Shown: positions 9,768 through 25,599 of the stretch, piece after piece
Layout of the letters: each line of letters begins with the position of its first letter
Position numbering within the stretch: the first letter of the stretch is position 1
Assembly (NCBI RefSeq): GCF_007995095.1
Contig: NZ_VOPY01000003.1
Location: 186,001-250,000 of the forward strand
From: Flavisphingopyxis soli
GTDB lineage: Bacteria > Pseudomonadota > Alphaproteobacteria > Sphingomonadales > Sphingomonadaceae
Reading direction: 5' to 3'
Length of the DNA stretch: 64,000 bases
Program-made: the position numbers and the translations under genes
The notes under the pieces: model-generated
What the model was told of the DNA's origin: nothing
What the model saw: the letters and a program-made list of their open reading frames with translations, nothing else
Database searches by the model: none

Positions 9768-9841
9768 TGGAGCGGGTGAAGGGAATCGAACCCTCGTCGT
9801 CAGCTTGGGAAGCTGCTGCTCTGCCATTGAGCTACACCCGC
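9768..9841 (-). tRNA. tRNA-Gly (anticodon CCC), integration target
   Basis: The reverse strand gives a 74-nt cloverleaf: acceptor GCGGGTG pairing CACCCGC, D-arm GCTC...GAGC, anticodon loop TTCCCAA with anticodon CCC, T-arm with GGTTCGATTCC, and an encoded CCA 3' end. It closely resembles the glyU class. Its 5' 40 nt (9802-9841) recur exactly at 25560-25599, so the island inserted here. The 5' half and anything upstream of it now derive from the island; the integrase gene lies 43 bp upstream in the same direction. Confidence 0.95.
9802..9841. repeat. Left attachment repeat (within intact tRNA-Gly)
   Basis: Forty bases from AGCTTGGGAAGC to TACACCCGC, identical to 25560-25599. It spans the tRNA from its 5' end through the anticodon loop and into the 3' side of the anticodon stem, so the crossover lies within this region, probably at the anticodon arm symmetry. 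Confidence 0.93.
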
Positions 9842-9871
9842 ATTTCCGCCATTTTCGGGATGCACTGACCC

Positions 9872-9895
9872 GTCAGTTTACAGGTCAGTTTACAG
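9872..9895. repeat. Tandem GTCAGTTTACAG repeats, probable integrase arm sites (left)
   Basis: Two perfect tandem copies of the 12-mer GTCAGTTTACAG. They begin 31 bp from the left core, and the second one covers the integrase stop codon. The same AGTTTACAG word recurs twice near the right end of the island in the same orientation, which suggests arm-type sites for the integrase or its directionality factor. Confidence 0.65.
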
Positions 9896-10988
9896 CCTTC
9901 GCGGCAAGACGCTCGCCAAGTGCCACAACGGTTCGGGCTTGGTCAACGTAGACCAGTCGGATGTCGGCCACTTTTTCTGGTGACCATGCCATAGCTCTCG
10001 CAATTTCTTGATCGGTAGCTCCGGCGATCATCAGGTGCGTGGCATATGTACCTCGGCAGTCGTGGAGGTGCTTTTTCCGGCCATCCGAATGTATGATGCC
10101 AGCTTTTTTTGATGCTTCTCCAACGCGCTTGCCAAGGCCACCCGGTGACCACGAATTACCCTCACTGGTGACGAGAACGGTATCGACATCGACTTTTCGG
10201 CGTCGCGCACGAAGCTCCTGAAGTAAGCTCTGAAGACCCGCTGTCATTGAAACCATCGCCCGCCGCCGCTTTCCCTTGCTGGCCTTTTGGGCCATCCGGA
10301 TGATGGCTTTATCCCCAACCTCATTCCAGCGGAGATCAGCGAGGTCGGCGCAGCGCAGGCCAGTCAGACATGCTAGTCGAACGGCGTCAATGACTGCGGC
10401 GTTCGCTACACTCGCAAATCGTTCTAAATCATCGGATAGCCAAACGATGTCGGCGCGCTGACCGTTCCTATAAATAGCTGGGATATCCGCAGCCATGTTG
10501 ATTGTAAGGCGGCCTCGTTGCACTCCAAACTTCAATAGTGCGCGCAAAACGGTTACGCCGATATCGGCAGCGCGCGGCGTATTCCTTCGGCTGTCCCGCC
10601 AAGCAAAAACCTTGGCCTTCATCCGAGGGTCGTTGAAAACTGCGAGGGGAACTTCGCCCCATTTTGTCTCGATCATGTCCAGCGCGGACCCCCATGTCCG
10701 CTTCGTACTAATTGCTAAGGCAGTCCATTCCGGGCTGGATGGGCGGCTTGGGTTCCGAGATCGCCATTGGCGAATGAGCGATTGGAGCGTTTGATCATGA
10801 TTTTCATTCCGCGCCTCCCAAGCGGCAGCAATTTTACCCATCACCTCAGGGGTTAGTTTCGGCCGCCTCGCGCTGATAAATCTGTGGACCATCGGGCCGC
10901 CGCGCCATGCATAGACGTACCAAGCTCGCCCCTCCTGGAGTTGCTTTCGGACGATGTGCTCCCCGGCAGTCACAGTTTGTCTGACCAC
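9885..10988 (-). CDS. int: Tyrosine recombinase / phage-type integrase
   Basis: A 367-residue site-specific recombinase. An N-terminal arm-binding and SAM-like core-binding region (about residues 1-170) precedes the catalytic domain with Arg212 (LTGLRCADL), a lysine in KASKGKRRR (238-240), His309 and Arg312 (HDCRGTYATHL), Trp335 in place of the second His, and nucleophile Tyr347 (RLVYVD). It sits directly beside the attachment core, reading toward the tRNA. It overlaps the upstream small gene by 19 bp, so they are likely cotranscribed. It should catalyse integration and excision of this island at tRNA-Gly. Confidence 0.95.
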   Translation of the reverse strand: MVRQTVTAGEHIVRKQLQEGRAWYVYAWRGGPMVHRFISARRPKLTPEVMGKIAAAWEARNENHDQTLQSLIRQWRSRNPSRPSSPEWTALAISTKRTWGSALDMIETKWGEVPLAVFNDPRMKAKVFAWRDSRRNTPRAADIGVTVLRALLKFGVQRGRLTINMAADIPAIYRNGQRADIVWLSDDLERFASVANAAVIDAVRLACLTGLRCADLADLRWNEVGDKAIIRMAQKASKGKRRRAMVSMTAGLQSLLQELRARRRKVDVDTVLVTSEGNSWSPGGLGKRVGEASKKAGIIHSDGRKKHLHDCRGTYATHLMIAGATDQEIARAMAWSPEKVADIRLVYVDQARTVVALGERLAAKAVN

Positions 10989-11281
10989 TTATCGAACTCG
11001 TTATCGCTTGCCTGCTCGCCTGTGTCCGGATGAACGCCAACAAACTTTAACCGAATTGAACCGTCGTTTCCGATCTCCATCTCACTCACTGCAACTCCGC
11101 CTTTTTGAGCGGCACTTATCGCGCGCCAAACGTCGCTTTTCCGGAAGCTTGCCTTACGGGAGCGCGCGGGCGGAATGATTGTATCAATCCGAGCGTCAAC
11201 GGATGAAGTTGAAACGATAAACCTCTTTCGTGGCCTCACGCTCACCGAGTGTTTTTCGGAATTAGGCATTACTTTTAGCAT
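10970..11281 (-). CDS. Small integrase-linked protein, unknown function
   Basis: About 103 residues, overlapping the start of int by 19 bp. I choose the ATG at 11281 (MLKVMPNSEKHSV) because GAGGCGG stands 6 bp before it; the frame extends to 11338 and a third ATG lies at 11269. The C-terminal half (DVWRAISAAQKGGVAVSEMEI then DGSIRLKF) has the form of a short helix-strand module seen in many alphaproteobacterial proteins encoded just ahead of integrases. A role as excisionase or integrase cofactor is an inference from position. Confidence 0.7.
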   Translation of the reverse strand: MLKVMPNSEKHSVSVRPRKRFIVSTSSVDARIDTIIPPARSRKASFRKSDVWRAISAAQKGGVAVSEMEIGNDGSIRLKFVGVHPDTGEQASDNEFDKWSDKL

Positions 11282-11893
11282 AACCGCCTCTTTTTTGACG
11301 ATCATCAACAATAAAGCCATAAATAATGTTGGCAACAAGAGAATTGTGCAACGCGTTGCAAGCCTATTTGGTTGGTAATCTAAGCAGCACTGTCTTCTCA
11401 GCTAGGGGTATCTTTAAGTTGAAGGGTCGACAGGTCGCGATTTAATTGTCAACGACGCTAGCAACTTGGATACTAGCATCGGTGAACTTTGGCCAATCGT
11501 ATTCACCTTTTACGTGTTCAGCGCCACCCGCTTGACGGATGCCAGTGGCAGCTTGATATCGCACGCAGTGGGTCAATCCGATTGAGATTTTCCGGTATCT
11601 AGCCAGAGTACTAGGCGTTTCTATGGGAGCCTACTGGATAGTGGCGACTACCGATCCTGTCGATTGAGCATATGGACCACCATTCGCACCCCGCGCGCCC
11701 ACCCAATGGACCGGTGGCGTGACGAGGGACCACCTTGGCCGGGAGGAGCAGCGTTCCCTCGCCACGCCACCGGTCCATTGGGCGATCACGCGGGATGCGA
11801 ATAGTGGTCCATATGCGCGTGTTGGTTTTTGTTGGGTGCTGTCAGAACAATGGTCTGACGCCGATAAGCAACGGTTCGCTCTCGCCCATCATA
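11282..11893. other. Gene-free stretch of the island, with a long inverted repeat
   Basis: About 610 bp with no convincing coding frame on either strand. The part from 11340 to 11660 is AT-richer and should hold the promoter of the integrase pair (which starts leftward). The right part holds the 149-bp inverted repeat described separately, 77 bp beyond the 3' end of the 480-aa gene. Confidence 0.6.
11668..11816. repeat. Long imperfect inverted repeat (62-bp arms, 25-bp loop)
   Basis: The arm 11668-11729 (from GCATATGGACCAC to GACGAGGGA) pairs with 11755-11816 at 55 of 62 positions, with 25 bp between them. The innermost and outermost blocks are perfectly or almost perfectly matched; most mismatches cluster in the middle (positions 29-34). 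It may be a MITE-like palindrome, a recombination site, or the DNA for a long hairpin RNA ending the leftward 480-aa gene. There is no terminator-like T run. Confidence 0.85.
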
Positions 11894-13336
11894 CTAGCGT
11901 CGGCGGACGCCTCGCACCATTTGTGCGAAGCCTTGCCGCATTGCTCTCGCAACGGTCGCATACGGTTCAACGAGGTGGTGTCGCCGCTCCTCGCCGGGGC
12001 GGGATCGCCGAATTATATTCGCATCGCTGATCAATCCCGCGCGATGGAGCTTGCTTACAAGTTCCGGCGTAAACGCCCCGTGGCGGTCCGTTGCAGCAAA
12101 GCTGCCCGCCCCGATCAGTGCTTCAAGCACAGGCTCGGGCCGAACGTGGACCTTCGTGCAGCATCGTGAAATGCGCGTGACGAGGTCGGCGCAATCTTCG
12201 ATGCGCGGTTCGGGCACATCCGATGCCATCTCACACAAGCTGTCCCAGTCAAGGCGCGTAACCGCTACCGTCCGAAGGGCAATCAGGATGTCTGACAGAG
12301 GGCTGTCCGCTGATATAGGGGTTCCGCGAAGGTTGTCCTTTACCTTAAAGCTGAACCGCGTCTCAATCCTGATGCGGTCTGACGTTTTTGCATAGATCAC
12401 GATCTTGGTCCGCTTGGTCGGCTTGACCCCGATGAACGTCGATCCGCTTCGCCGCCCACCTATCTCGCTTATGGGATATCTGCGCCATTCGCAGTTAGTG
12501 TGCGACGCCATGATGGCGGTTGTAAGCCTATCCATCAAATCAAGGGCATCTCCATGCCGCCGCTCAAAGTAAACTTCTGCTTCTGCGGGATAGAGCCGGT
12601 CCCAGTTAAGTGCAACGCGGTGCAGCGCATCGCTGGCGTAGAGTTGTTCCCCGGCATATCCATGTGCGAACCCTTCGGATACCGGAGCGACCGCCTCCAA
12701 GGCCCAGAGCTTGAGCTTCTCCTCGAAGATGCGGATGAACGCACCGGCCCAGTCGACGCCAAGCCGATCAACGACTTCGGTAAGGTTGCCGATAATATTG
12801 TCTGATGCGTCGAGGGTCGGCACCCTTTCCACAGACAACGCACGCTCGAAGAACTGGTCTACCGGAAGGTCCATAAGCGCGGCCAGCGCATCGGGCGTAT
12901 GGCGCACCATCTCTAGCGAGTGGATCAGCGTGCGGGTCGGGTTGAGCGTCATCGTGAGCTTGACCCCCAGCCCACGCTGGGTGCCCTTCGTAATGAAGCC
13001 GGTCTTTGCAGAAATCGTGCCGGGGTGGTGGAACAGGTTCGTCCTGAAGTAATCCGGACCCCTTCCCGGAAGCCCCCAGCTTCGAGTGGACGCGCCGCGC
13101 CTCTCCAGAAGGGAGCGATAGCTTTTCATCAATGTCGTCGTTGTCTCGGGCGGATCTTCGAAAGGATCGCTATCGGGCCGGATAAAATGCACTTCGCCGG
13201 GCACCGCGACGACCAGTCTGTCGAAGCCCAGTTCCGATGCGGTGGGGCGATGCCTAATATCAAGAGCCTTGATGCCAAACCGGGACCGCTGCAACGGCCT
13301 GCCTCGCCAGCTTGTCGATGCTAGTGCCATTCGCAC
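11894..13336 (-). CDS. Unknown 480-residue island protein, possible replication-initiator-like
   Basis: I do not recognise this gene with confidence. It starts at a GTG (13336) six bases after AGGGG; an ATG two codons on is an alternative. The central segment GSTFIGVKPTKRTKIVIYAKTS then DRIRIETRF resembles the pattern of Rep_trans-type rolling-circle initiators (IxxYdK...RxE), and the C-terminal region (about 405-440) could form a winged helix. That would suit a plasmid- or phage-derived Rep on an excised circle, but the catalytic tyrosine motif is not clear. Codon use is more AT-rich than in the core genes. It stands alone, transcribed leftward. Confidence 0.6.
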   Translation of the reverse strand: MRMALASTSWRGRPLQRSRFGIKALDIRHRPTASELGFDRLVVAVPGEVHFIRPDSDPFEDPPETTTTLMKSYRSLLERRGASTRSWGLPGRGPDYFRTNLFHHPGTISAKTGFITKGTQRGLGVKLTMTLNPTRTLIHSLEMVRHTPDALAALMDLPVDQFFERALSVERVPTLDASDNIIGNLTEVVDRLGVDWAGAFIRIFEEKLKLWALEAVAPVSEGFAHGYAGEQLYASDALHRVALNWDRLYPAEAEVYFERRHGDALDLMDRLTTAIMASHTNCEWRRYPISEIGGRRSGSTFIGVKPTKRTKIVIYAKTSDRIRIETRFSFKVKDNLRGTPISADSPLSDILIALRTVAVTRLDWDSLCEMASDVPEPRIEDCADLVTRISRCCTKVHVRPEPVLEALIGAGSFAATDRHGAFTPELVSKLHRAGLISDANIIRRSRPGEERRHHLVEPYATVARAMRQGFAQMVRGVRRR

Positions 13337-13600
13337 TGTGTCCCCTACTTTTGACGTTCGCGGAGGTCTGTAGAGACAGAGTGTTGCTATCGGGCAAACG
13401 GGTCAAGCGGCCATCACGAAATGGGGAGCACCGGGGTGCGTCGTTGGCGAGCGCGCCCGGAGCAGAGCGATAGGGGCCAGGTTCCTGAACAGTCATCGGT
13501 GAGAGCCGGGATCGGGCGGTCGGGCAACGAGCCACACGTCCAGACCTACTGGCACAGTGAGCCACCCTGCCAGCGAATACGCTGAAGCCGTGCAGGTCGC

Positions 13601-14164
13601 TCACAGGTTCGGATGAGGTAGCATGTTGTTAGGAAGCACTTCGGCGATAGCATCAGGAAACGGGCAGATCGGCGACCGTTCGAGGTCGGCGGCATGCCAT
13701 CCCCAACGGTCGCGCAGATGCTGCGCAATGTCGATGCTATGGGGAGGTATCTGGGCAAACCACTCACGCCCGGTAACCGCCGACGCATCCACAACTTTGC
13801 GCCATTCATCCCAGCGATAAAAGCGGAGGTGAATTGCCCTGTGACAAGGTTGGCAGAGGGTCGGATCGCGGGAGATATCGTAATAGACATCCCCGTGTAA
13901 AGAGAGTGGCCCCGAACTGCCGCAGATGTTACATTTCGATGCCAACCTGATGCAGCCCGCCGCCAGAAGCCATCCGGCTAGATGCCCACCGCGTCGCCGC
14001 TCAATGCCAGTGAAGCCATTATAGGGCTTAAGAAGCGGGAAGCGCGAGACTTGATAGCGCGGCGGCGCATTGGATCGAGGTAACCCTAAGACATGACGGG
14101 GAAGCGCCTCAATGTAGCCGTCGATATCGAACTGCGAGTGAAGTTCAGCCAGGGCCGTTTCCAA
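13601..14164 (-). CDS. HNH-like zinc-motif protein in the recombinase operon
   Basis: About 187 residues from a TTG at 14164 that lies inside the end of the upstream 66-aa gene (overlap 20 bp). The longer frame to 14275 is rejected because its N-terminus is an out-of-frame reading of that gene. Residues near the middle read CNICGSSG, then HGDVYYD, then LCQPCHRAIHLRFYRW: two CxxC pairs flanking a histidine, followed by CHxxIH, the arrangement of an HNH/zinc-ribbon nuclease. Function is unproven. Overlaps with the two upstream genes indicate tight coupling to the serine recombinase. Confidence 0.65.
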   Translation of the reverse strand: METALAELHSQFDIDGYIEALPRHVLGLPRSNAPPRYQVSRFPLLKPYNGFTGIERRRGGHLAGWLLAAGCIRLASKCNICGSSGPLSLHGDVYYDISRDPTLCQPCHRAIHLRFYRWDEWRKVVDASAVTGREWFAQIPPHSIDIAQHLRDRWGWHAADLERSPICPFPDAIAEVLPNNMLPHPNL

Positions 14165-14345
14165 TCTGCTGCGTGATCTCGCCGGCAGTGCAGTCAACCG
14201 CAGCGATAGCCATCCGCATCTGCGAAACCAGCACACGCTGCATGTCCGGAGCGTTATCGAGGCGCTGACCTTCAATGGCGAGGCCGTGCATATCCTCCAG
14301 TATAGACGTGATGGCTGCGAACAGGTGAGGGACGCCGTCCGTCAT
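14145..14345 (-). CDS. Small helical protein, unknown, coupled to the serine recombinase
   Basis: Sixty-six residues (MTDGVPHLFAAITSILEDMH...). Its ATG overlaps the recombinase stop as ATGA at 14342-14345, a classical coupling signal, and its own stop lies inside the next gene. It looks wholly helical, with heptad-like spacing of hydrophobics, and carries no known motif. It may be an adaptor or antitoxin-like partner of the downstream HNH-like protein; this is inference from gene order and size. Confidence 0.6.
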   Translation of the reverse strand: MTDGVPHLFAAITSILEDMHGLAIEGQRLDNAPDMQRVLVSQMRMAIAAVDCTAGEITQQIGNGPG

Positions 14346-14899
14346 GCCGTCTGGCCTAACGAAAGGATGCGATACACTGAAGACCTCGATATTCCGATCT
14401 CTGCCGCGATTGCTGACGCCCCTTTGCCAGTGGCATGTAGTTCCGCGACGCGCCCGCTCTGGCGCCGGGCGGTCGGTGCACGCCCTCGATACCGCCCCTC
14501 GGCCTTGGCCTTAGCAACACCATTGCGCTGCCGTTCCAACATTATCTCGCGCTCGAATTGGCTAAAAGACCCCATTAGGTTCAAAAGTAACTTGCCAGTC
14601 GCGGTCGATGTGTCGAGGTTCATTGCAAAGATCTTGAGTGTGACACCTTTGGCTTCCAGTCGCTCCGTGATGCTGCACAAGTCAGAGATCGATCTTGCCA
14701 GTCGAGATAAATCGGCGACGACTAAAACGTCTCCGTCACGAGAAAACTCTATTGCAGCGCAAAGCTCATCCCGTTGAGAAACAGATGAAGTCATCTCACC
14801 AAATAATCGGGTGCACCCCGCCGCAAGCAACTGGACTTCCTGCGCGTCGTATCCGGCCACCTGCTCGCTGGTAGATGACCGTCGATAGCCTATAAGCAT
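14342..14899 (-). CDS. Serine recombinase (resolvase/invertase family)
   Basis: A 185-residue small serine recombinase: Tyr5-Arg-Arg-Ser-Ser9-Thr with Ser9 as nucleophile, VVADLSRLARS (conserved Arg pair), DTSTATGKLLLNLMGSFSQF and FEREIMLERQRNG on the long E helix, then a C-terminal helix-turn-helix (GASAIAAEIGISRSSVYRIL) for site binding. It could resolve cointegrates, invert a segment or maintain an excised circle. It is the first gene of a three-gene overlapping operon and begins 6 bp from a palindrome (14905-14927) that could be both its operator and a recombination subsite. Confidence 0.92.
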   Translation of the reverse strand: MLIGYRRSSTSEQVAGYDAQEVQLLAAGCTRLFGEMTSSVSQRDELCAAIEFSRDGDVLVVADLSRLARSISDLCSITERLEAKGVTLKIFAMNLDTSTATGKLLLNLMGSFSQFEREIMLERQRNGVAKAKAEGRYRGRAPTARRQSGRVAELHATGKGASAIAAEIGISRSSVYRILSLGQTA

Positions 14900-14904
14900 C
14901 TGAA

Positions 14905-14927
14905 TAACCTCATCAATTATCAGGTTA
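14905..14927. promoter_or_regulatory. Palindrome upstream of the serine recombinase
   Basis: TAACCT-N11-AGGTTA, with further partial symmetry inside (CATCAATTATC). It covers the ribosome-binding region of the recombinase gene, so it would repress translation or transcription if bound. The size also suits a resolvase subsite I half-pair. Confidence 0.45.
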
Positions 14928-15312
14928 CATTGACCAAGACGGTTCAGGAAGTCACGAGAAAACGACCACTTTTATTGTTACTTTCCGACTTATCAGAGTG
15001 CTCGCTACGAGTGCGGAATTGGCAAGATATTTGTGCGATCAAATGGCGCTGACGACTGGAAGCAATTTTTATCGCAGCCTGAACTTCGACGGGCCATGGG
15101 CAGGCCGGCATAACCGGCACCGCATTCGCCATAACTGCGGTCGTCCGCGATTGGATACATGCAACTGAAATCGGTCGCTCGGTCAGCTTGCGCCGAAGCC
15201 TATTTGGCTACAAGGTTACCGTGGTTAGGTGGTTGCGCTCCAGCATCCCGAGCGCGCCGACGCGAAGTCCGTTCGGCAACCAGTTTTGCCCGCTATTACA
15301 GAAGGACGTAAA
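14928..15312. other. Divergent intergenic region, no gene seen
   Basis: About 385 bp between the leftward recombinase operon and the rightward 247-aa gene. It must hold the promoters for both. I see no confident -35/-10 pair and no convincing ORF. Confidence 0.5.
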
Positions 15313-16056
15313 ATGACTGATGAAAAGTATTCACCTGCGGTCCTTCTTTTAGCCGACCAAATGGAACACCGGATGGCTAATAGAGAGAAATGGAAGCGCG
15401 ATGCGGCCATTTTGATCGATGTCCATCAAGTTGCGTTTAGTGCCCTGGCGTCGGTATTGAAACGTAATCTGGGACGTAAGGTTGAGGATGTCAGCAAGGC
15501 ACAAGAAGGCCAAATCTGCTTAATATCACATTTTGTCCAGGGGATTGAACTTTGCGAAAGCTCAATCTCCGAAGGTCTTTACTCGCAGGCTGCGGCGCTG
15601 TTGAAACAAGAGGTTGAGATAGTATCTGGTATCGAAGAATATCGTACTGACAAGCGGAAGGAAAAGAAAACGCCTCTGATTGGCAAGGGTGTCACTGCGG
15701 GCTTCGGACCTGTGTATGGGCAGCTCAATGATATTGCGCACCTTGGACGCCATGAAATCGCGAAGAACATCGTTTCGGGATCTGTTGGCAACCTAACCGG
15801 GGCAAGTATCGTTCCGGTTTACGAAAAAGACCTAGCGTTTGCGCTGTATGGCCAACACATCCATTACATAATTCTAGTGACGCAACAACTCGATGTGCTG
15901 TTCCAATCAATCTATGGAAAGGGTCTGAACGAGGACGAAAAAGGTTGGAGTGGTGGCGCGATTGGGGTCTTGCTGAAGGAAGGATTTCTCAAGCTACCAG
16001 ACAATGCAGAAGGGGAGGAAGCCGACTGGATCAGATCGATGATAAAGATCAAGTAG
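15313..16056 (+). CDS. Unknown, mostly helical 247-residue island protein
   Basis: The start ATG at 15313 follows GAAGGACGTAAA. Codon use is clearly AT-rich against the core genes, a sign of transfer. The protein is soluble and mainly helical. A central SEGLYSQAAALLKQEVEIVS helix and a later GPVYGQLNDIAHLGRHEI loop recall DUF5677-type/HEPN-like proteins (aromatic...LSD..H), which are found in defence and toxin settings. The HEPN RxxxxH catalytic motif is not evident, so this is only a resemblance. It stands alone, converging on the RES gene. Confidence 0.7.
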   Translation: MTDEKYSPAVLLLADQMEHRMANREKWKRDAAILIDVHQVAFSALASVLKRNLGRKVEDVSKAQEGQICLISHFVQGIELCESSISEGLYSQAAALLKQEVEIVSGIEEYRTDKRKEKKTPLIGKGVTAGFGPVYGQLNDIAHLGRHEIAKNIVSGSVGNLTGASIVPVYEKDLAFALYGQHIHYIILVTQQLDVLFQSIYGKGLNEDEKGWSGGAIGVLLKEGFLKLPDNAEGEEADWIRSMIKIK

Positions 16057-16409
16057 CCTCCCTCCCCGAAATCATGATCGGGGGTTAACTTAACCTCCCA
16101 CAGACTTATTGTGCAAGCGCATATGTGCAACGGGATCCCGAGCGGCCTTTATTGGAAAAGATAAAAGGCAGTCGAGCGGCAGCTTTCCATTACCGAGATC
16201 CGCCAGTCGGCTCCCTACCCAACAGCGGACATTCCACATTTTAACTATCAATCCTATAATAGGACCAGCCACATTTCACATAGATTATAGGTCTTGCGAG
16301 ACGCATGTTCCAAAAGCCGGGGCCAACTTCTGTGGGACGCTTTGCGGAAAACATCCTGCCAATCTAATTGTCTCACATAGGCAGGGCCTTTCGAGACCAA
16401 GCTGAGACA
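16057..16409. other. Convergent intergenic region, no gene seen
   Basis: About 350 bp between the ends of the helical protein gene and the RES gene. A weak hairpin (CCCCGA...TCGGGG around 16064-16084) lies just after the first stop. The rest is AT-rich, with no credible coding frame. Confidence 0.5.
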
Positions 16410-17228
16410 TCAGGCTTCGGGTTCCGACCACGGTTCGATGTCCACAATCTCGTTTCGAGCGAGCCCGGTGTCGGTAACAAAATAGGGGTTGTCAGCCATT
16501 TCCAGCTTCACACGCATTTGGCCAACACGGTGCAGGCCACACGACCGCAGTTCGGCTGCACTTACGTCGAACAACGCCACGTTGAAGCCGTCTTCGCCAT
16601 AGCCACTCTTGTATGCGATGCCGTCATACCCTTGCAGACGCAGAGTTTCAGCAATGATCTGTGTGGGAACGTATGTGAGGCCGCTGTCGGCCCGCTCAAC
16701 CGGTGCAGAAAAGGCATCGTTTATCTCGGTCCAGACGTGTAGCTCGATTTCCTCAGACGTCATATTGGGATTGAGGAAAGCAAACAGGTTCTTAACTAGC
16801 TTCTCCGAGCAATCAACGATCCGCAGGTCGCGAACGATCTTGAACTGCGCAATCGACACGTATGAACCGATCAAAGGTCGCACTTCCAGCGCAGCGGTCT
16901 CCTCGTTCGTCGAGAGATATAGGCAAGCAATCCCCTTTACGTTCACCCTACCTTCGCCAACGAGATGTGGATCGGGGATCATATGCTTTGGCTCATGCGC
17001 GCCCGGAAAATCTTCATACTCGCCGGGGGCCAACTCCTGCTTATGCCATCCGTGGCCTAATTGGGCTCGATAGAAATAAGCGCCTGCCTTGAGCTTTCGC
17101 ACACGGCTCATGCTGGTCAGGCTCACAGTATCTAAAAAGGCCGCTTGGTCTGGCGTTCGTGCGTAGCGAAACGCACCGCGCACAGACCTGTTGAAGTCCC
17201 GAAATGCGTTATGATTGGCAAAAGTCAT
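16410..17228 (-). CDS. RES-domain protein (putative NAD+-degrading toxin family)
   Basis: A 272-residue protein. The RES fold begins with YFYRAQLG (Arg54), then GRVNVKGIACLYLSTNEETAAL (Arg94, Tyr104, Glu110/115), and ends with QIIAETLRLQGYDGIAYKSG then FNVALFD. RES domains act as NAD+ phosphorylases or glycohydrolases in toxin-antitoxin pairs with Xre/MbcA-type antitoxins. No such antitoxin gene is adjacent; a 55-residue extension at the N-terminus may be self-regulating. It is transcribed away from hsdM (about 150 bp between starts), so the two may share a control region. It is a likely defence or addiction cargo gene. Confidence 0.85.
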   Translation of the reverse strand: MTFANHNAFRDFNRSVRGAFRYARTPDQAAFLDTVSLTSMSRVRKLKAGAYFYRAQLGHGWHKQELAPGEYEDFPGAHEPKHMIPDPHLVGEGRVNVKGIACLYLSTNEETAALEVRPLIGSYVSIAQFKIVRDLRIVDCSEKLVKNLFAFLNPNMTSEEIELHVWTEINDAFSAPVERADSGLTYVPTQIIAETLRLQGYDGIAYKSGYGEDGFNVALFDVSAAELRSCGLHRVGQMRVKLEMADNPYFVTDTGLARNEIVDIEPWSEPEA

Positions 17229-17378
17229 ATCCGTGCCTCACTGGTATTTGCATAGCGCCGATTGTTTGCCTCCGCGCTGCACCACAGGTTAACGATGCCC
17301 AATGGAACTGCACTCCGCCAGTGACTTGTTGTCGCGACGTTGGCATGAAGCGGATCAAGTTCGAAATTGGGGAATAAC

Positions 17379-19619
17379 TTGCTTACCGAATATCACAAAG
17401 AAATCGCTGGAAAGATTTGGGAAATCGCCAACCGATTGCGTGGCCCCTATCGTCCGCCACAATACCGGCTGGTGATGCTGCCCATGATCGTGCTGCGGCG
17501 GCTCGATTGTGTGTTGGAGGCCACCAAGGATGCCGTGGTCAAAGAGCATGAACGCCTGATTGCGGCTGGAACGTCAGAAAAGGCCATTCCCAAGCTCCTG
17601 ACCAAGGTCGTCGATCCCGACCGTAAACAGCCGCTCTATAATGTTAGCCGGCTCACCTTCGCCAAACTGCTTGATGACAGCGAGAACATCGCCCCCAACC
17701 TCGTCTCCTACATCAACGGCTTCTCCGCTACCGCGCGCCGCATTTTCGAGAAGTTCAAGTTCGGTGAGCAGATTGAGAAGTTGGATGCCAGCAACCGGCT
17801 GTTCAATATCGTCAAGGAAATGGCGAGCGTCGATCTGCATCCGAACAAGATCGACAGTATCCAGATGGGCTACATCTTCGAGCACCTCGTCATGCGCTTC
17901 AATGAGCAGGCGAACGAGGAGGCCGGGGATCACTTCACCCCGCGCGAGGTCATCCGGTTGATGACTAGCCTGATCTACACGGGCGAAGACGATGTTTACA
18001 AGCCAGGCGTCTACAAGGAAATCTACGATCCCACCTGCGGCACGGGCGGCATGTTGTCGGTGTCGGAAGAGGCCATTCTGCACGGCAATCAGTCCGCCAA
18101 CCTCGCCCTATTCGGGCAGGAATACAACGCCGAGAGCTGGGCGATCTGCTGCGCCGACATGCTTATCAAAGATGAAGAGACCAACAACATCGTGCTGGGT
18201 GATACGCTGGGCGACGGCAAGACCAGCGACGGTTTTGCCGACCGCCAGTTCCACTACATGTTGGCCAACCCACCATTCGGTGTGGAATGGAAAGACCAGC
18301 AGAAGGTCGTAGCGAAGGAACATGCGGAGCTAGGCTTCTCTGGGCGCTTTGGAGCGGGACTGCCCGCTATCAACGACGGCTCGCTGCTATTCCTTCAGCA
18401 CATGATTTCCAAAATGCACCGCACGCCAGAGCAGGGCGGCGAAGGGTCGAAAATCGCGATCATCTTCAACGGCTCTCCCCTGTTCAGCGGCGACGCCGGG
18501 TCCGGTCCGTCGAACATCCGGCGCTGGATCATTGAAAATGATTGGCTCGACACGATTGTCGCCCTGCCCGACCAGCTCTTCTACAACACAGGCATCTTCA
18601 CTTACATCTGGCTAGTCACCAATCGGAAGGCACCCGAACGTCAGGGCAAGGTTCAGTTGATTGACGGCACCCGCTTCTTCCGCAAAATGAAGAAGAGTCT
18701 CAACAATAAGCGCAATGAGATCAGCGACGCGCCGGGCGACGATCAAATTGCCGATCTGACCCGGCTCTACGGTAACAACAAGGAGGGTGAGACTGCCGTT
18801 GTCACTATCGACGGCCAACTGGAAAAGCGCGTTGTCAGCCGCATTTTCCATAATTATGATTTTGGTTTTCTCAAGGTTACGGTCGAGCGCCCGCTGCGCC
18901 TGAACTTCGAGGTGACGCCAGAACGGATCTCCCGTCTCGACGATCAATCCACCTTCGCTAACCTTGCCGTTTCCAAGAAGCGCAAGGATGCTGCAGCTGC
19001 GGCGCTGGAGGAGGCCGATGGACGCGACGAGCAACAGGCAATTCGCGACATCCTCACTACACTGGAAGGCAAGGGGCGGTATCTGGACCGGGAAGCGTTC
19101 GAGGCTGACCTACACAGTGCCGCCAAGCGTTTCGGGCGCAAGGTCTCCGGCCTTATGAAGAAAGCGATCTTCGCCGCGCTGGGTGAACGTGATCCGCAAG
19201 CTGAGATCTGCCGTGACAGCAAGGGTCGAGCTGAACCAGATAGCGAACTTCGCGATACCGAGAATATTCCGCTGCCTGCCTACCCTGACCTGCCCAAAGC
19301 TTTTACAGAGGCTATCAACAAGGCGGAAAACTCCGCCCATCGCGGAGCAAAACTACCCATGTTCTTCGGGCCCGACAGCCCGAATGACGATCTGGTTGCG
19401 ACTATGCGCGGCGTGATCGACGCCTATATTCGTGCCGAGGTGCTGCCGCATGTGCCCGATGCTTGGGTCGATTATGCCAAGACCAAGGTCGGCTATGAAA
19501 TCCCCATCAACCGGCATTTCTACATGTACAAACCACCGCGTCTGCTGGGCGAGATCGAAGCCGATATCACCACGCTTGAAGACGAGATTGCAGACTTGCT
19601 CAAGGGGATGGTGACGTGA
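17379..19619 (+). CDS. hsdM: Type I restriction-modification system, DNA methyltransferase subunit
   Basis: A 746-residue HsdM. The TTG at 17379 is chosen (M-LTEYHKEIAGKIWEIAN, the standard family start) with GGGGA 7 bp upstream. After an N-terminal helical domain (HsdM_N) comes the adenine-N6 methyltransferase fold: SAM motif DPTCGTGGM near residue 217 and catalytic NPPF near residue 297. A long C-terminal extension (from about 480) contains charged coiled-coil segments and the final ADITTLEDEIADLL helix that meets HsdS. Together with HsdS it methylates the recognition site; with HsdR added it restricts. It overlaps hsdS by 4 bp. Confidence 0.97.
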   Translation: MLTEYHKEIAGKIWEIANRLRGPYRPPQYRLVMLPMIVLRRLDCVLEATKDAVVKEHERLIAAGTSEKAIPKLLTKVVDPDRKQPLYNVSRLTFAKLLDDSENIAPNLVSYINGFSATARRIFEKFKFGEQIEKLDASNRLFNIVKEMASVDLHPNKIDSIQMGYIFEHLVMRFNEQANEEAGDHFTPREVIRLMTSLIYTGEDDVYKPGVYKEIYDPTCGTGGMLSVSEEAILHGNQSANLALFGQEYNAESWAICCADMLIKDEETNNIVLGDTLGDGKTSDGFADRQFHYMLANPPFGVEWKDQQKVVAKEHAELGFSGRFGAGLPAINDGSLLFLQHMISKMHRTPEQGGEGSKIAIIFNGSPLFSGDAGSGPSNIRRWIIENDWLDTIVALPDQLFYNTGIFTYIWLVTNRKAPERQGKVQLIDGTRFFRKMKKSLNNKRNEISDAPGDDQIADLTRLYGNNKEGETAVVTIDGQLEKRVVSRIFHNYDFGFLKVTVERPLRLNFEVTPERISRLDDQSTFANLAVSKKRKDAAAAALEEADGRDEQQAIRDILTTLEGKGRYLDREAFEADLHSAAKRFGRKVSGLMKKAIFAALGERDPQAEICRDSKGRAEPDSELRDTENIPLPAYPDLPKAFTEAINKAENSAHRGAKLPMFFGPDSPNDDLVATMRGVIDAYIRAEVLPHVPDAWVDYAKTKVGYEIPINRHFYMYKPPRLLGEIEADITTLEDEIADLLKGMVT

Positions 19620-20893
19620 GCTTCGACATCGTCACACCTGGCGATTGGCCGCGATCTTCGGTGTCCAAGTATTGCCAGGTGCAGCTTGGAAAGATGCTCC
19701 AGAATGACCCTAGCGGCGAAGACGACGAATTGCTGCCATACCTGCGGGCAATCAGCATCTCTAAAAATGGCGTGGACCTTTCGCACCAGTTCGCGATGTG
19801 GATCAAGCCGCACGAAAAGGCTAAGTACCGACTTCGACCTGATGATGTTCTAGTGAGCGAAGGTGGAGACGCTGGGCGCACCGCGCATTTCAAATCCGAG
19901 GGCGAGTATTATTTTCAAAACGCGATAAATCGGGTCCGTCCGCTCAACAACGGACAGATCGAAAGTCGTTATCTGTTCTATTGGTTCACCTATCTAAAAC
20001 TGGCTGGCTACGTCGATTTGATTTGCAACGTGGCAACCATCGCCCATTTCACGGCTGAAAAAGTGAAGGCGGCTCCATTTGCTCTGCCGCCCCTCACTAC
20101 CCAACGCCGCATCGTGGCGCTTTTAGATGAAAGGACGGCGCAGATTGACGGCTTGATTACGCGTAAGAAGGCTCTGCTGGAGCGGCTGGCAGAAAAGCGG
20201 CAGGCGATCATTACACAGGCCGTCACCAAGGGCCTGAAACCCGCCGCCGCCACGAAAGACAGCGGCATCGACTGGCTCGGCCAAATCCCCGCACATTGGG
20301 ACGCCTTGCCGTTGCGGCGGCTGGCAGATCGGGTTGTTACAGGGCGGACGCCACCTGCTGCTGCTGGAGACTTTTTCACGGATAGTGACGTGCCGTGGTA
20401 TACCCCCGGAGATTTTGAGGGACTGTTTTTGGCTGATGCTGAGAAGTCGTTGACTGCCGACGCCTTCAGCGAGGGCTACGCTGTTCAATTCCCCGCAAAC
20501 TCTGTGCTGTTGGTCGGCATTGGCGCAACGCTCGGGAAGGTCGCCGTGGCTCCGATGACGTGCTCGTCAAACCAGCAGATCAATGCAATCACGGCGAATG
20601 GAGAAACGGATCCCATATTTCTGGCCTACTCTCTCCACGCCTTCCGTGCCGAGGTCCGGATGTCTGCAAGCGGAAACACGCTGCCCATCCTCAATCAGGA
20701 AAAGACCAAAGCGATTATCATGACACGACCGCCTTACGCCGAACAAGCTGCCATCGGCGCATTTCTTCGCGAACAAGATCGGAAGATCGAAGCGGTAGTG
20801 GAGAAGGTCGAGACAAGCATAAAATTGTTGGTTGAGCGCAGATCGGCTCTCGTGACCAACGCAGTCACCGGCCAAATCGAGGGGCTTCAATGA
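19616..20893 (+). CDS. hsdS: Type I restriction-modification system, specificity subunit
   Basis: A 425-residue HsdS starting at a GTG that overlaps the hsdM stop (GTGA). It has the standard two-fold layout: target recognition domain 1 (1-155), a conserved helix (PPLTTQRRIVALLDERTAQ and on to about 200), target recognition domain 2 beginning GQIPAHWDALPLRRLAD, and a second conserved helix (EQAAIGAFLREQDRKIEAVV) to the C-terminus. Both TRDs look complete, so the target should be a normal bipartite sequence. The ends overlap the next gene by 4 bp. Confidence 0.95.
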   Translation: MSFDIVTPGDWPRSSVSKYCQVQLGKMLQNDPSGEDDELLPYLRAISISKNGVDLSHQFAMWIKPHEKAKYRLRPDDVLVSEGGDAGRTAHFKSEGEYYFQNAINRVRPLNNGQIESRYLFYWFTYLKLAGYVDLICNVATIAHFTAEKVKAAPFALPPLTTQRRIVALLDERTAQIDGLITRKKALLERLAEKRQAIITQAVTKGLKPAAATKDSGIDWLGQIPAHWDALPLRRLADRVVTGRTPPAAAGDFFTDSDVPWYTPGDFEGLFLADAEKSLTADAFSEGYAVQFPANSVLLVGIGATLGKVAVAPMTCSSNQQINAITANGETDPIFLAYSLHAFRAEVRMSASGNTLPILNQEKTKAIIMTRPPYAEQAAIGAFLREQDRKIEAVVEKVETSIKLLVERRSALVTNAVTGQIEGLQ

Positions 20894-21477
20894 GCCTCGA
20901 TGCCTCCAGCTACTTCAATCACCTGCGAACATACCTGTTTGCCGATTATGTCATTGACGATGGCAGTAGCGGGGCGGTTACACTGACAGAAAAATATTTC
21001 CTCGCAGGAGAGACGAAGAAGCGGACCCGCAAGGTAGTGCTGCCGTTTAAGGGTAAGGCTTTCGCCATCAAGCTCGATGGCATGCCGGACCGGCTGTTTC
21101 ACTTTCTCGACGACAACGGCAAACCATGGTCGAAACGGTGTGATTTCGTCATCTTTCAGTGCACTCGCAAGGTAGTCAACGCATATCTATTCGAGTTCAA
21201 GACAAAGAGTTTGGACCCGTCCTCGATCATCGACCAACTCAAGTCTGGCGAGCATTGGTGCGCCTGTCTGCGCAAGGTTGTGCATCAATATACGGGCGAT
21301 GACCGTAAGCTGCGTTTGCGCAAGTTCGTCTGCACCGAAAACGATAACCCGGCTGCTTACCTTGATGGAACCGGGCATTATCTGGCGCGTGATCCTTCGA
21401 TACGTCATTATCACTATGATGCCCTCGCCGGGCTAACGTTGGATCAACTGGACAACACTTCGATACGGACGGTGTGA
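20890..21477 (+). CDS. Small PD-(D/E)XK nuclease-like protein embedded in the hsd operon
   Basis: A 195-residue protein whose ATG overlaps the hsdS stop (ATGA), with only 7 bp to hsdR. No name is recognised. The middle reads KRCDFVIFQ (Asp85), a short strand, then YLFEFKTKS (Glu102-Phe-Lys104), followed by a helix with IIDQLKSG. Asp-x16-Glu-x-Lys on adjacent strands is the pattern of the PD-(D/E)XK nuclease core. The charged KKRTRK near residue 45 could contact DNA. Position shows it is made together with the RM complex; it may be an extra nuclease, an assembly factor or a defence add-on. The fold assignment is inferred by eye. Confidence 0.7.
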   Translation: MSLDASSYFNHLRTYLFADYVIDDGSSGAVTLTEKYFLAGETKKRTRKVVLPFKGKAFAIKLDGMPDRLFHFLDDNGKPWSKRCDFVIFQCTRKVVNAYLFEFKTKSLDPSSIIDQLKSGEHWCACLRKVVHQYTGDDRKLRLRKFVCTENDNPAAYLDGTGHYLARDPSIRHYHYDALAGLTLDQLDNTSIRTV

Positions 21478-21484
21478 GGGAACT

Positions 21485-24400
21485 ATGGCAGGACACACCG
21501 AAGCTGATTTCGAACGCGCTATCGAGCATGGGCTGCTTCAGACCAAGCGTTACCGTAAGGGCGATCCAAAGACTTATGATCCAGCCACCGCGCTGTTTCC
21601 TAATGAGATAATCGCCTTCGTCCGGGCGAGCCAACCTGTGCGCTGGGGACAGCTTGAAGCAATGCTCAAAGAGCGCACCGCTTCGACGGTGCTCGACAGC
21701 TTAACCAAAGAGCTGACTAGTAAGGGCACGCTGGGCGTGCTGCGGCACGGCTTCAAGTGTTATGGCAAGACACTGCGCCTCGCATATTTTCAGCCAAACT
21801 CGGGTATGAACCCCGAGGCGGCTGCGCGCTATGCCGCCAACTGTCTGACCATCACCCGGCAGGTCGAGTTCGTCTCGGACGTGCTGAAGCGCCCGGATGG
21901 CGGCAAGCGCAAGTGCATCCTCGACGTGGTGATCGCCATCAACGGCCTGCCGGTCGTAACGGCGGAGCTGAAAAACCAGTTGACCCATCAGCGGGCGGAG
22001 GATGCCTGCAAGCAATACATGACCGACCGTGACGGGCGCGACCTGCTATTTCGCTTCAAAGAGCGAGCGCTCGTGCATTTTGCGGTCGATCCCGATGAAG
22101 TGTGGATGACTACCGAACTGAAGGGTAGCGATACCTTCTTTCTGCCGTTCAACCGGGGTCACGATTTCGCAGCGGGCAATCCGCCGGTCGAAGGCAACTG
22201 GAAAACTCACTACCTTTGGGATGAGGTGCTGGCGGCTGACAGCCTGCTCGATATTCTCCAACGGTTCATGCACCTAGAAGTGAAAGAACGGACGGTGCAG
22301 ACGCCGAACGGCCCGCGTATCGTTCGGAAAGAGACCATGATCTTCCCGCGCTACCATCAGCTTGATGCCGTGCGACGGCTGGTCGATCATACACGCCACC
22401 ACGGCGCTGGACGGAACTACTTAATCCAACATTCGGCTGGGTCGGGCAAATCGAACAGTATCGCATGGCTGGCACATCGGCTGGCGTCGCTGCACGATGC
22501 CTTTGACGAGAAGGTCTTTCACTCTGTCATCGTCATCACTGACCGGCGCGTGCTCGACCAACAGTTGCAGAATACGATCTACCAGTTCGAGCACAAGACT
22601 GGCGTGGTCGAGAAAATCGACGAGAATACGCAGCAGCTCGCCCGCGCCCTGTCCAACGGCACGCCAATAATCATCTCCACCATTCAAAAGTTCCCGTTCA
22701 TCAGCCAAGCCATCAAGACGATGGAGGGCAAGGGCGAAACGCTTGCGCTGGAGACGCGGAACCGGCGTTTCGCGGTGATCGTGGACGAAGCGCACAGCTC
22801 GCAGTCTGGTGAGACTGTGAAGGCGCTCAAAGGCATCCTGAACAAGGACGGCATTGCTGACGCTATCGCCAACCAGATTGAAGATGAGGAAGATGACGAC
22901 CTCTCTGAAGCCGCCAAAGCCGCTATCAGGCAGGAAGTTCTCCAACGCGCCCGCCAGCCCAACTTGAGCTTCTTTGCCTTCACAGCGACCCCGAAGTTCA
23001 AAACCAAGGCCGTTTTCGACGAGCCGGGGCCAAGCGGCGCTTCGCCGTTCCACGAATACACAATGCGGCAGGCCATCGAGGAGGGCTTCATCCTCGACGT
23101 GCTGGAGAACTACACCACCTATAAACGTTTCTTCGGGCTGGTGAAAAAGGTCGAAGACGATCCCAATGTGCCGAAGAAGGCGGCTGCGAAGGCGTTGGGG
23201 CAGTATCTTGAGCTGCACCCGGTCAACGTGGGACAGATAGTTGCCGTCATCGTAGAGCATTTCCGCCTGAAAGTGATGCATGAGCTGGGCGGACGTGCGA
23301 AGGCGATGGTTGTGACTGGCTCGCGCCTGTCCGCCGTGAAATACAAGCAAGCCTTCGACGCCTACATCCGCGAGCGTGGATATCATGGCATCAAGGCCCT
23401 GGTGGCTTTCTCCGGCACCGTAGATGACCCTGACGCGCCGGGCACCGCTTTCAACGAAGTCGGCATGAACGATGGTCTGTCCGAGCGGGAGCTACCAGAA
23501 CGGTTCGGCGGCGATGAATATCGTGTGCTGATCGTGGCCGAAAAATATCAGACCGGGTTCGACCAGCCAATGCTCCAGACCATGTATGTGGTGAAGAAGC
23601 TCGCTGGGGTGCAGGCTGTGCAGACCCTGTCACGCCTCAACCGGATTGCAGCGGGCAAGACGCGCACGTTCGTGCTCGACTTCAAGAACGAAGAAGCGGA
23701 CATATTCAAGGCGTTTAAACCCTATTTCGAGGCAACGCCGGTCGGCCAGAACGCCGACCCTCATAAGCTCAACGAACTACACCACAAGCTGCTGCAACCC
23801 GCCGTGTTTACTTCTGCTGAGATCATCGAGTTTTCGGAAGTCTGGTTTAAGAAGCGCCGGGAGCCGACCGGACAGGATCACCGGATCATAAACGCCGTAC
23901 TCGACAGGGCAGTCGAACGGTTCAAGAACCTCGATGAGCCGGTGCAGGAGGAGTTTCGGGGGCAGCTTACAGCTTTCCGCAACCTGTATTCTTTCCTGTC
24001 GCAAATCATGCCTTATTTCGACGATGGGCTAGAGCAGCTTTATGCCTTCCTACGGAACCTCGCACCGAAACTCCCCCGTCTCGGCGACGGGTCGAAGTTC
24101 ACACTGGACGATGACGTCGCACTCAAGTTCTTTCGTCTTCAGCAAGTCGGCGAAGGCACAATCGATCTCTCGGATAGCGATGCAGACCCCCTCAAAGGCC
24201 CCACCGATGTGGGCACCGCAAGTGAGAAAGATGTGGAAGTCGCACTCTCAACCTTAGTCGACAACCTGAACGAAAAGTTCGGGACTGACTTCACCGAAGC
24301 CGATCAGCTCTTTTTCGATCAAGTCCGCGCCACTGCTGAAAAAAACGAGAAGATCGTCGAGGCTGCGCAAGCGAACAACCTGTCAAACTTCTCGGCCTTC

Positions 24401-24568
24401 TTCGGACGCATCCTCGACGACCTTTTCATTCAGAGGATGGAAGGCAACGACGAGATTTTCAATCGTGTGATGAGCGACAAGCGATTTAGGACAGCGGCAC
24501 AGGACCACCTTGCCCGTGAAGTATATGAGCGCATCAAAGGCGAAGAGCCAAGTAGCTACACCAGCTAA
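21485..24568 (+). CDS. hsdR: Type I restriction-modification system, restriction/translocase subunit
   Basis: A 1027-residue HsdR. The N-terminal nuclease domain has the ILDVV...AELKN motif (Asp146, Glu161, Lys163). The SF2 motor follows: Walker A HSAGSGKSN near residue 315, DEAH box VIVDEAHSS near 432, FFAFTATPKF (motif III) near 500 and motif VI region VQTLSRLNR near 710. A helical C-terminal domain for docking to the methylase completes it. It would translocate and cut DNA lacking modification. GAGGGA precedes the ATG. The stop overlaps the end of the convergent GIY-YIG gene. Confidence 0.97.
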   Translation: MAGHTEADFERAIEHGLLQTKRYRKGDPKTYDPATALFPNEIIAFVRASQPVRWGQLEAMLKERTASTVLDSLTKELTSKGTLGVLRHGFKCYGKTLRLAYFQPNSGMNPEAAARYAANCLTITRQVEFVSDVLKRPDGGKRKCILDVVIAINGLPVVTAELKNQLTHQRAEDACKQYMTDRDGRDLLFRFKERALVHFAVDPDEVWMTTELKGSDTFFLPFNRGHDFAAGNPPVEGNWKTHYLWDEVLAADSLLDILQRFMHLEVKERTVQTPNGPRIVRKETMIFPRYHQLDAVRRLVDHTRHHGAGRNYLIQHSAGSGKSNSIAWLAHRLASLHDAFDEKVFHSVIVITDRRVLDQQLQNTIYQFEHKTGVVEKIDENTQQLARALSNGTPIIISTIQKFPFISQAIKTMEGKGETLALETRNRRFAVIVDEAHSSQSGETVKALKGILNKDGIADAIANQIEDEEDDDLSEAAKAAIRQEVLQRARQPNLSFFAFTATPKFKTKAVFDEPGPSGASPFHEYTMRQAIEEGFILDVLENYTTYKRFFGLVKKVEDDPNVPKKAAAKALGQYLELHPVNVGQIVAVIVEHFRLKVMHELGGRAKAMVVTGSRLSAVKYKQAFDAYIRERGYHGIKALVAFSGTVDDPDAPGTAFNEVGMNDGLSERELPERFGGDEYRVLIVAEKYQTGFDQPMLQTMYVVKKLAGVQAVQTLSRLNRIAAGKTRTFVLDFKNEEADIFKAFKPYFEATPVGQNADPHKLNELHHKLLQPAVFTSAEIIEFSEVWFKKRREPTGQDHRIINAVLDRAVERFKNLDEPVQEEFRGQLTAFRNLYSFLSQIMPYFDDGLEQLYAFLRNLAPKLPRLGDGSKFTLDDDVALKFFRLQQVGEGTIDLSDSDADPLKGPTDVGTASEKDVEVALSTLVDNLNEKFGTDFTEADQLFFDQVRATAEKNEKIVEAAQANNLSNFSAFFGRILDDLFIQRMEGNDEIFNRVMSDKRFRTAAQDHLAREVYERIKGEEPSSYTS

Positions 24569-25407
24569 TTGCGGTTCAAACCCATGTCTCGGCTCTGGAG
24601 CTTGGCCTTCCAAAGCTGTTCGGTTGCTAATATTTCGTCGCTTGTCGCCGCTGATCCCATGACCTCCAGAATACTGACTTGATAGTCCGAGGGGTCACGA
24701 CTTTTTAGGCCAACATTGCCTCCGTGTCCGGTAGAGACGTAAGCCTGCCAACGCCCCCAAAATCCGTCCGCTCCGTAGGCCGAACCGACATACTGCTCGC
24801 GAGTGCGCGGGCATGTCAGAAGGTAGATGCCTTTGGTCGCGGACAAAACCGCGATCCATGACAATGGTAGGCTGGGCAGGCTCCCGAGATTGCCGATGAA
24901 GCGGGTGAAACCGGGAAAGTCAGGCTCCTGAAACGACTGGGTCAGTTCGACGATAGGCTTGTTACCTGTGTTGCTGTCTGCCCGCTGCGCCCATGATCGA
25001 GTTCCCGGGCCCCAATCAATTTTGAGGCAGCCGATTAGCTGGTCGAACTCCGGCAAGCGGCGATACTCATAAATATCTAGCGCGCGACCCATCTGACTTG
25101 CCGTCTCGCGCATGAGAGGGTCAACCCAACCCGCTTGAACAGGGCCATGGCCTGAAACCTCATACAATCCGGCAAACATGGTGCTGCCATCCGGGGGCAC
25201 AACAAAGCCAGCCCAAAACCTGCTGGCGAAGTAGGAGCGTCGATCCTCGCGTTGGGCGCTTTGATATCGCTCGAACTCATCGCGGTTGTCACGCCAGATC
25301 GCGTATGGGGTGAGGCCATCCTTCGCGACGTGTTGGTGACGCATGAGCCGAACTTCGCTTGGATCAATCCCGCTGTCGGACAACACCATATTGAATGTGA
25401 GTGCCAT
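24565..25407 (-). CDS. GIY-YIG nuclease-family protein
   Basis: A 280-residue protein starting at the ATG at 25407 (MALTFNMVLSDSGID) behind GAGGCGAG; the frame to 25488 is unsupported. The N-terminal 185 residues form the domain found in a widespread two-domain family (VRLMRHQ...TPYAIWRD...FERYQSAQ). The C-terminal GIY-YIG domain has G193-I-Y195, Y206-V-G, Arg219, GHGGN (227-231), Glu263 and a final GLNRN, so the catalytic set (Tyr, Arg, Glu, Asn) is complete. It is convergent with hsdR; the two stop codons overlap (24565-24568). Relatives are often next to restriction systems. It may be an accessory or independent restriction nuclease. Confidence 0.88.
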   Translation of the reverse strand: MALTFNMVLSDSGIDPSEVRLMRHQHVAKDGLTPYAIWRDNRDEFERYQSAQREDRRSYFASRFWAGFVVPPDGSTMFAGLYEVSGHGPVQAGWVDPLMRETASQMGRALDIYEYRRLPEFDQLIGCLKIDWGPGTRSWAQRADSNTGNKPIVELTQSFQEPDFPGFTRFIGNLGSLPSLPLSWIAVLSATKGIYLLTCPRTREQYVGSAYGADGFWGRWQAYVSTGHGGNVGLKSRDPSDYQVSILEVMGSAATSDEILATEQLWKAKLQSRDMGLNRN

Positions 25408-25467
25408 CTGTCTCGCCTCGCTGTGATGCCGCAAAGTGCAACCCGTTGCACACTTATACCTGCATTT

Positions 25468-25529
25468 CAGTTTACAGCTTTTCAGCAAGTGTTTGAAATG
25501 CCAGGCGCCGTTTTTTGCCTAGTTTACAG
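25468..25529. repeat. AGTTTACAG repeats, probable integrase arm sites (right)
   Basis: Two copies, CAGTTTACAG at 25468-25477 and AGTTTACAG at 25521-25529, in the same orientation as the tandem pair at the left end. The second ends 31 bp before the right core, the same distance as on the left side. Confidence 0.6.
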
Positions 25530-25559
25530 CGGGAATGGTAGAAAACCGTTGACTACGGG

Positions 25560-25599
25560 AGCTTGGGAAGCTGCTGCTCTGCCATTGAGCTACACCCGC
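25560..25599 (-). repeat. Right attachment repeat: truncated tRNA-Gly 5' half
   Basis: A perfect copy of 9802-9841, equal to tRNA-Gly nucleotides 1-40. It lacks the T-arm and 3' acceptor strand, so it cannot be a functional tRNA. It is most likely the original chromosomal 5' half, cut off when the island entered. Confidence 0.93.

Follow-up and report, generated by a model that had tools for sequence, protein, structure and literature searches.

What a fourth gene is doing inside a type I restriction-modification (RM) operon is the question raised by this locus. In the window, by which we mean the whole 64,000-nucleotide stretch of Flavisphingopyxis soli DNA that was analysed, positions 17367-24568 of the plus strand hold a type I RM operon in the order hsdM-hsdS-X-hsdR, where X designates a small gene lodged between the specificity and restriction subunits. 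The operon comprises the following genes:

17367..19619, plus strand: hsdM, type I N6-adenine methyltransferase subunit, 750 aa (Pfam N6_Mtase, E 2.5e-52, and HsdM_N; PADLOC PDLC03029, E 1e-259)
19616..20893, plus strand: hsdS, specificity subunit, 425 aa (Pfam Methylase_S, E 4.9e-24, in two stretches; PADLOC Specificity_I, E 4e-88)
20890..21477, plus strand: X, predicted PD-(D/E)XK-like accessory effector, homologue of PD-T4-4_B, 195 aa (PADLOC PD-T4-4_B and PDC-M47B)
21485..24568, plus strand: hsdR, restriction and translocation subunit, 1027 aa (Pfam HSDR_N, SWI2_SNF2 and T1R_D3-like)

Intact methyltransferase, motor and nuclease motifs were found across hsdM, hsdS and hsdR, as in a type I RM system. 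The Pfam and PADLOC identities clearly bear out the type I operon described in the initial annotation, whereas the hsdM start given there, 17379, has to move upstream to the first in-frame start codon, a TTG at 17367. The placement of the 195-aa gene at 20890-21477, overlapping hsdS and 7 bp ahead of hsdR, was confirmed on the sequence: the ATG of X and the TGA of hsdS share the letters ATGA (a 4-bp overlap), and seven bases separate the X stop codon from the hsdR ATG. The NPPF motif of HsdM is conserved across 65 sequences. HsdR retains its own nuclease residues (D147, E161 and K163), and its nuclease and SF2 motor motifs are conserved in 83-84 sequences, whether X is present or absent. X is therefore no replacement for HsdR, and the idea that it substitutes for a dead HsdR nuclease was ruled out.

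Direct searches for X recovered little. A single-sequence pattern search of genome contigs gave no match, tblastn in plasmids and phages gave none, and no copy was detected in 300 more genomes of the same taxonomic family. A survey of 399 genomes from across the phylum turned up no copy beyond that of the window, indicating that X is rare. An orphan gene, as the empty single-sequence search had suggested, was overturned by loci collected with HsdR as the anchor. Among 80 related operons sampled from one HsdR family, X occupies the hsdS-hsdR slot in 30, or in 29 of the 69 where hsdS is visible. The 30 loci consist of 27 open copies (including the hybrid L014), the degraded copies L041 and L076, and L049, whose hsdS lies off the contig and which therefore falls outside the 69. 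The 4-bp overlap with hsdS recurs in the majority of X-bearing loci. Since a sample anchored on HsdR presupposes an RM system, linkage was re-tested from the X side. A profile search of 385 genomes of the class yielded two more copies (L082 and L083), and a search of IMG/VR yielded four (L085-L088). All six lie in hsdS-X-hsdR order, and hsdM is visible on all four viral contigs. The L082 protein is apparently the same as that of L065, and is counted as an independent search match that adds no new lineage. Linkage to hsd genes in other genomes, on which the initial annotation had staked its proposal, was thus observed from both anchors. The pairwise dN/dS of X ranges from 0.02 to 0.09 for the pairs where it was computable, with synonymous sites saturated or nearly so in some, and the other 27 aligned members are 45-76% identical to the window protein. 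The dN/dS values and the family alignment rule out a chance open reading frame; X is a real conserved gene.

The next point concerns the kind of protein it encodes. The nuclease-like core D85/E102/K104 picked out earlier stands as described: these residues, together with Q116, are invariant across 28 aligned X members, and a chance motif is thereby set aside. Against Pfam, X gave a single sub-threshold match, to PDDEXK_9 (E 0.27). In the AF2 model (pLDDT 89.3, pTM 0.88), D85 marks the beginning of strand 86-92 and E102-x-K104 the end of strand 95-103; a helix at 110-135 and then a strand at 142-149 come next. In this predicted model the strand order is as expected for the PD-(D/E)XK superfamily, and a second X member was modelled with an identical layout. 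The model and the alignment together place a conserved D...(D/E)-x-K across two neighbouring strands. The check for a restriction-endonuclease-type fold suggested in the initial annotation was thus favourable in strand order, with weak Foldseek matches. Against the PDB, the best hit had an E value of 0.055, and the top rows include the nickase BspD6I, BstEII and MspJI (none below E 0.05); against BFVD, a phage PD-(D/E)XK protein was matched with a probability of 0.99 and a weak E value of 6e-3. A match to LapB (E 0.006, PDB profile search) was judged spurious, as it spans a long helix and misses the motif. No recognised sensor domain was found in X.

PADLOC profiles connected X to nucleases that work beside ATPases. 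The window protein matched PDC-M47B (E 5.8e-6) and PD-T4-4_B (E 2e-5), and PD-T4-4_B was matched by all 28 X members (best E 4.3e-11). In hhalign, the X family aligned with the ATPase-linked PD-T4-4_B, represented by a set of just six sequences, at 97.6% (E 3.7e-12, 180 columns). In a joint alignment of both families, E34, D63, C84, D85 and K104 are present in every row, while E102 and Q116 are conserved at 90% or above. PD-T4-4_B and PDC-M47B are homologous to X, similar in length, and share its invariant E, D, C-D and (D/E)-x-K residues. Judged by these profiles, X shares family descent with PD-T4-4_B, which supplies the nuclease in two-gene OLD/ABC-ATPase systems. The genomic settings differ, with PD-T4-4_B following an ATPase gene and X following hsdS. 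An OLD/ABC-type ATPase gene, recognised by reading the sequences, precedes PD-T4-4_B in six of six loci from other genomes, and no RM genes were visible near these six within the loci of 2-3.5 kb. The neighbours of X are hsdS and hsdR, without the OLD/ABC ATPase that makes up the A subunit of PD-T4-4.

A comparison with known biology comes from WonAB, which its authors called similar to PD-T4-4. Its WonB component is a PD-(D/E)xK effector nuclease that halts translation while chromosomal DNA is not degraded, and its toxicity requires WonA, the ATPase partner (PMC12137116). WonB and X have the PD-(D/E)XK class in common, a link that runs via PD-T4-4 and not through a direct comparison of the two proteins; unlike X, WonB belongs to an ABC-ATPase pair and is toxic with WonA only. 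By analogy, a lone nuclease such as X might be inactive by itself or dependent on HsdR.

The gap between hsdS and hsdR behaves as a swap site. It is vacant in many relatives, and its other occupants include a TIR protein, an M78 protease with DUF4411, DUF3800, Fic, AAA_21 with DUF4276, and a 284-aa protein; occupants, X included, occur singly or in combination. Family names were assigned by scanning one or two members per cluster. The TIR occupant corresponds to PDC-S35 and is CAP12-like, and the M78 protease with DUF4411 is RosmerTA-like. Mapped onto the HsdR tree, X switches between present and absent at least 18 times, with 17 of the switches forced by well-supported branches, against 25 when the labels are shuffled. 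Within the window clade, where HsdR is about 90% identical, four operons display four different slot contents: the 195-aa X (window), a longer X (L003), the 284-aa gene (L047) and an empty slot (L002). Two alleles of X, about 46% identical to each other, also trade places elsewhere, for example between L031 and L024, where HsdR is 93% and X 46% identical. X is optional cargo, a cassette that these type I RM operons may carry or lack. Its presence in 30 of the 80 loci, with at least 17 gains or losses and swapping among operons whose HsdR is about 90% identical, rules out an obligatory fourth subunit, and with it the undescribed type I subtype put forward in the initial annotation.

Several observations were made on the other genes of these operons. 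The 284-aa protein (L004:7136-7990, L009:7141-7992, L047:4821-5675) replaces or follows X in the slot; it has no Pfam match, its L004 and L009 copies have no PADLOC match, and it is a candidate new defence effector. At L014:6336-7280, X runs in frame into the end of the 284-aa gene, a hybrid probably left by a deletion within an X-284 tandem like the one in L009. A CAP12-type TIR gene is present in the operons of L018, L021, L031, L032, L059, L014 and L062, directly after X in six of these seven. A RhuM-family gene lies between hsdM and hsdS in nine operons.

A rival reading would make X a dedicated part of the type I complex, with the HsdR SF2 motor standing in for the lost ABC ATPase and X cutting DNA where translocating complexes stall or collide. 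X was found only with this HsdR/HsdM family and always immediately after hsdS, and its distances correlate with those of HsdR (Spearman 0.49, 0/500 permutations), all of which speaks for such a subunit; the strict tie to one RM family could also make X a structural or regulatory subunit. We nevertheless regard the dedicated subunit as improbable, given that all 83 of the HsdR sequences keep an intact nuclease motif, that X is absent from over half of the operons closely related to one another, and that exchanging alleles of about 46% identity on an HsdR of about 90% identity is ill-suited to a tightly fitted DNA-cutting subunit.

Highly improbable, in our assessment, is a role as a brake or regulator of restriction, acting in restriction alleviation or self-protection. 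A non-catalytic brake would not require the invariant catalytic-type residues, related operons manage without X, and its homologues are defence effectors, although the layout of the gene suits co-translation with S and R and a nuclease fold might be reused without catalysis. No positive evidence emerged for either of the roles first suggested for X, a brake sparing self DNA or a second cut at stalled HsdR. HsdR keeps its own motifs, and those relatives of X whose biology is known act as effector nucleases, with WonB hitting translation and not the chromosome (PMC12137116).

The operon with X rides on a tRNA-Gly(ccc) integrative island of about 15.8 kb (9802-25599), with the following landmarks:

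9768-9841: tRNA-Gly
9885-10988, minus strand: phage-type integrase beside the tRNA
9802-9841 and 25560-25599: 40-bp exact att-like repeat, the copy at 25560-25599 repeating the 5' part of tRNA-Gly

GC content is 0.51-0.60 within the island compared with about 0.65 outside. Two further genes flank the operon. At 24565-25488 (minus strand), a gene that matches PADLOC UzuA (E 3e-80) and, weakly, GIY-YIG is convergent with hsdR and overlaps its end by 4 bp; it was not found in the fetched relatives. At 16410-17228 (minus strand), a RES-domain protein (toxin family, Pfam E 1e-14) is encoded just upstream of hsdM, in divergent orientation.

Defence genes embedded between hsdS and hsdR are already established. 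TgvAB and DarTG2 sit between hsdS and hsdR, RloF sits between hsdR and hsdS, and phage defence has been demonstrated for TgvAB and for an island bearing DarTG2 (PMC11411939, PMC12255303). These genes share with X the same or a similar slot in type I operons; unlike X, they are modification-dependent restriction or toxin-antitoxin genes and not relatives of PD-T4-4_B. PrrC is an effector nuclease whose gene is embedded in the type I RM operon EcoprrI, prrABCD (PMC3874165), and it sets the precedent of a type I enzyme holding an effector (PMC3874165, PMC12707154). Both PrrC and X are effector-type genes within a type I RM operon, X lying between hsdS and hsdR, so in location X resembles a PrrC-like guard. 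PrrC is a tRNA anticodon nuclease whereas X has a PD-(D/E)XK core, and the two are likened by description, not by sequence. The kind of embedding that the initial annotation thought could mark an undescribed type I subtype has therefore been published for other defence genes (PMC3874165, PMC11411939, PMC12255303). For a lone PD-T4-4_B-type nuclease in the hsdS-hsdR slot, no description was found in the open-licence papers searched.

The TgvAB case also bears on whether X has any functional contact with RM at all, or is an independent stowaway for which the slot offers a safe, expressed home, largely as for TgvAB. The slot hosts many unrelated defence genes, X has been repeatedly gained or lost, and RM-embedded TgvAB protects without HsdR restriction activity (PMC11411939). 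Unlike a free-living module, X turned up with this RM family alone when the searches were anchored on X, and the ATPase partner adjoining its nearest relatives is absent for X. We consider the stowaway rather unlikely.

With modest confidence, we favour X as an optional, self-contained, RM-embedded effector nuclease that backs up restriction in a PrrC- or WonB-like manner. This reading is adopted because of the position and coupling of the gene, its PD-T4-4_B homology, the effector-type company in the slot and the dN/dS; effector status as such we infer from the homology to PD-T4-4_B. The predicted core would consist of D85 and E102-x-K104, with E34, D63 and Q116 as conserved companions. From the gene layout, X would be co-translated with HsdS and HsdR, and it is probably kept silent until infection. 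A phage that evades, inhibits or loads the RM complex would then cause X to be released or activated, the trigger perhaps being routed via the RM complex, as EcoprrI does for PrrC (PMC3874165, PMC12707154). Activated X would cut nucleic acid, by analogy with WonB more likely RNA than the chromosome, and the infection would be stopped, often at the expense of the cell. A more specific history is possible and is offered tentatively: X may descend from an ATPase-gated toxin nuclease that lost its ATPase and is now gated by RM, through the HsdR motor or HsdS docking, as an abortive-infection nuclease with two interchangeable alleles.

X is thus probably a plug-in second anti-viral weapon and not a novel type of restriction enzyme. 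X joins two lines of research, that on OLD/ABC-ATPase effector nucleases and that on defence genes nested in type I RM operons. A lone nuclease wedded to RM offers a way to test what replaces the ATPase as sensor, and the changing contents of the hsdS-hsdR slot across these operons supply a list of further effector candidates.
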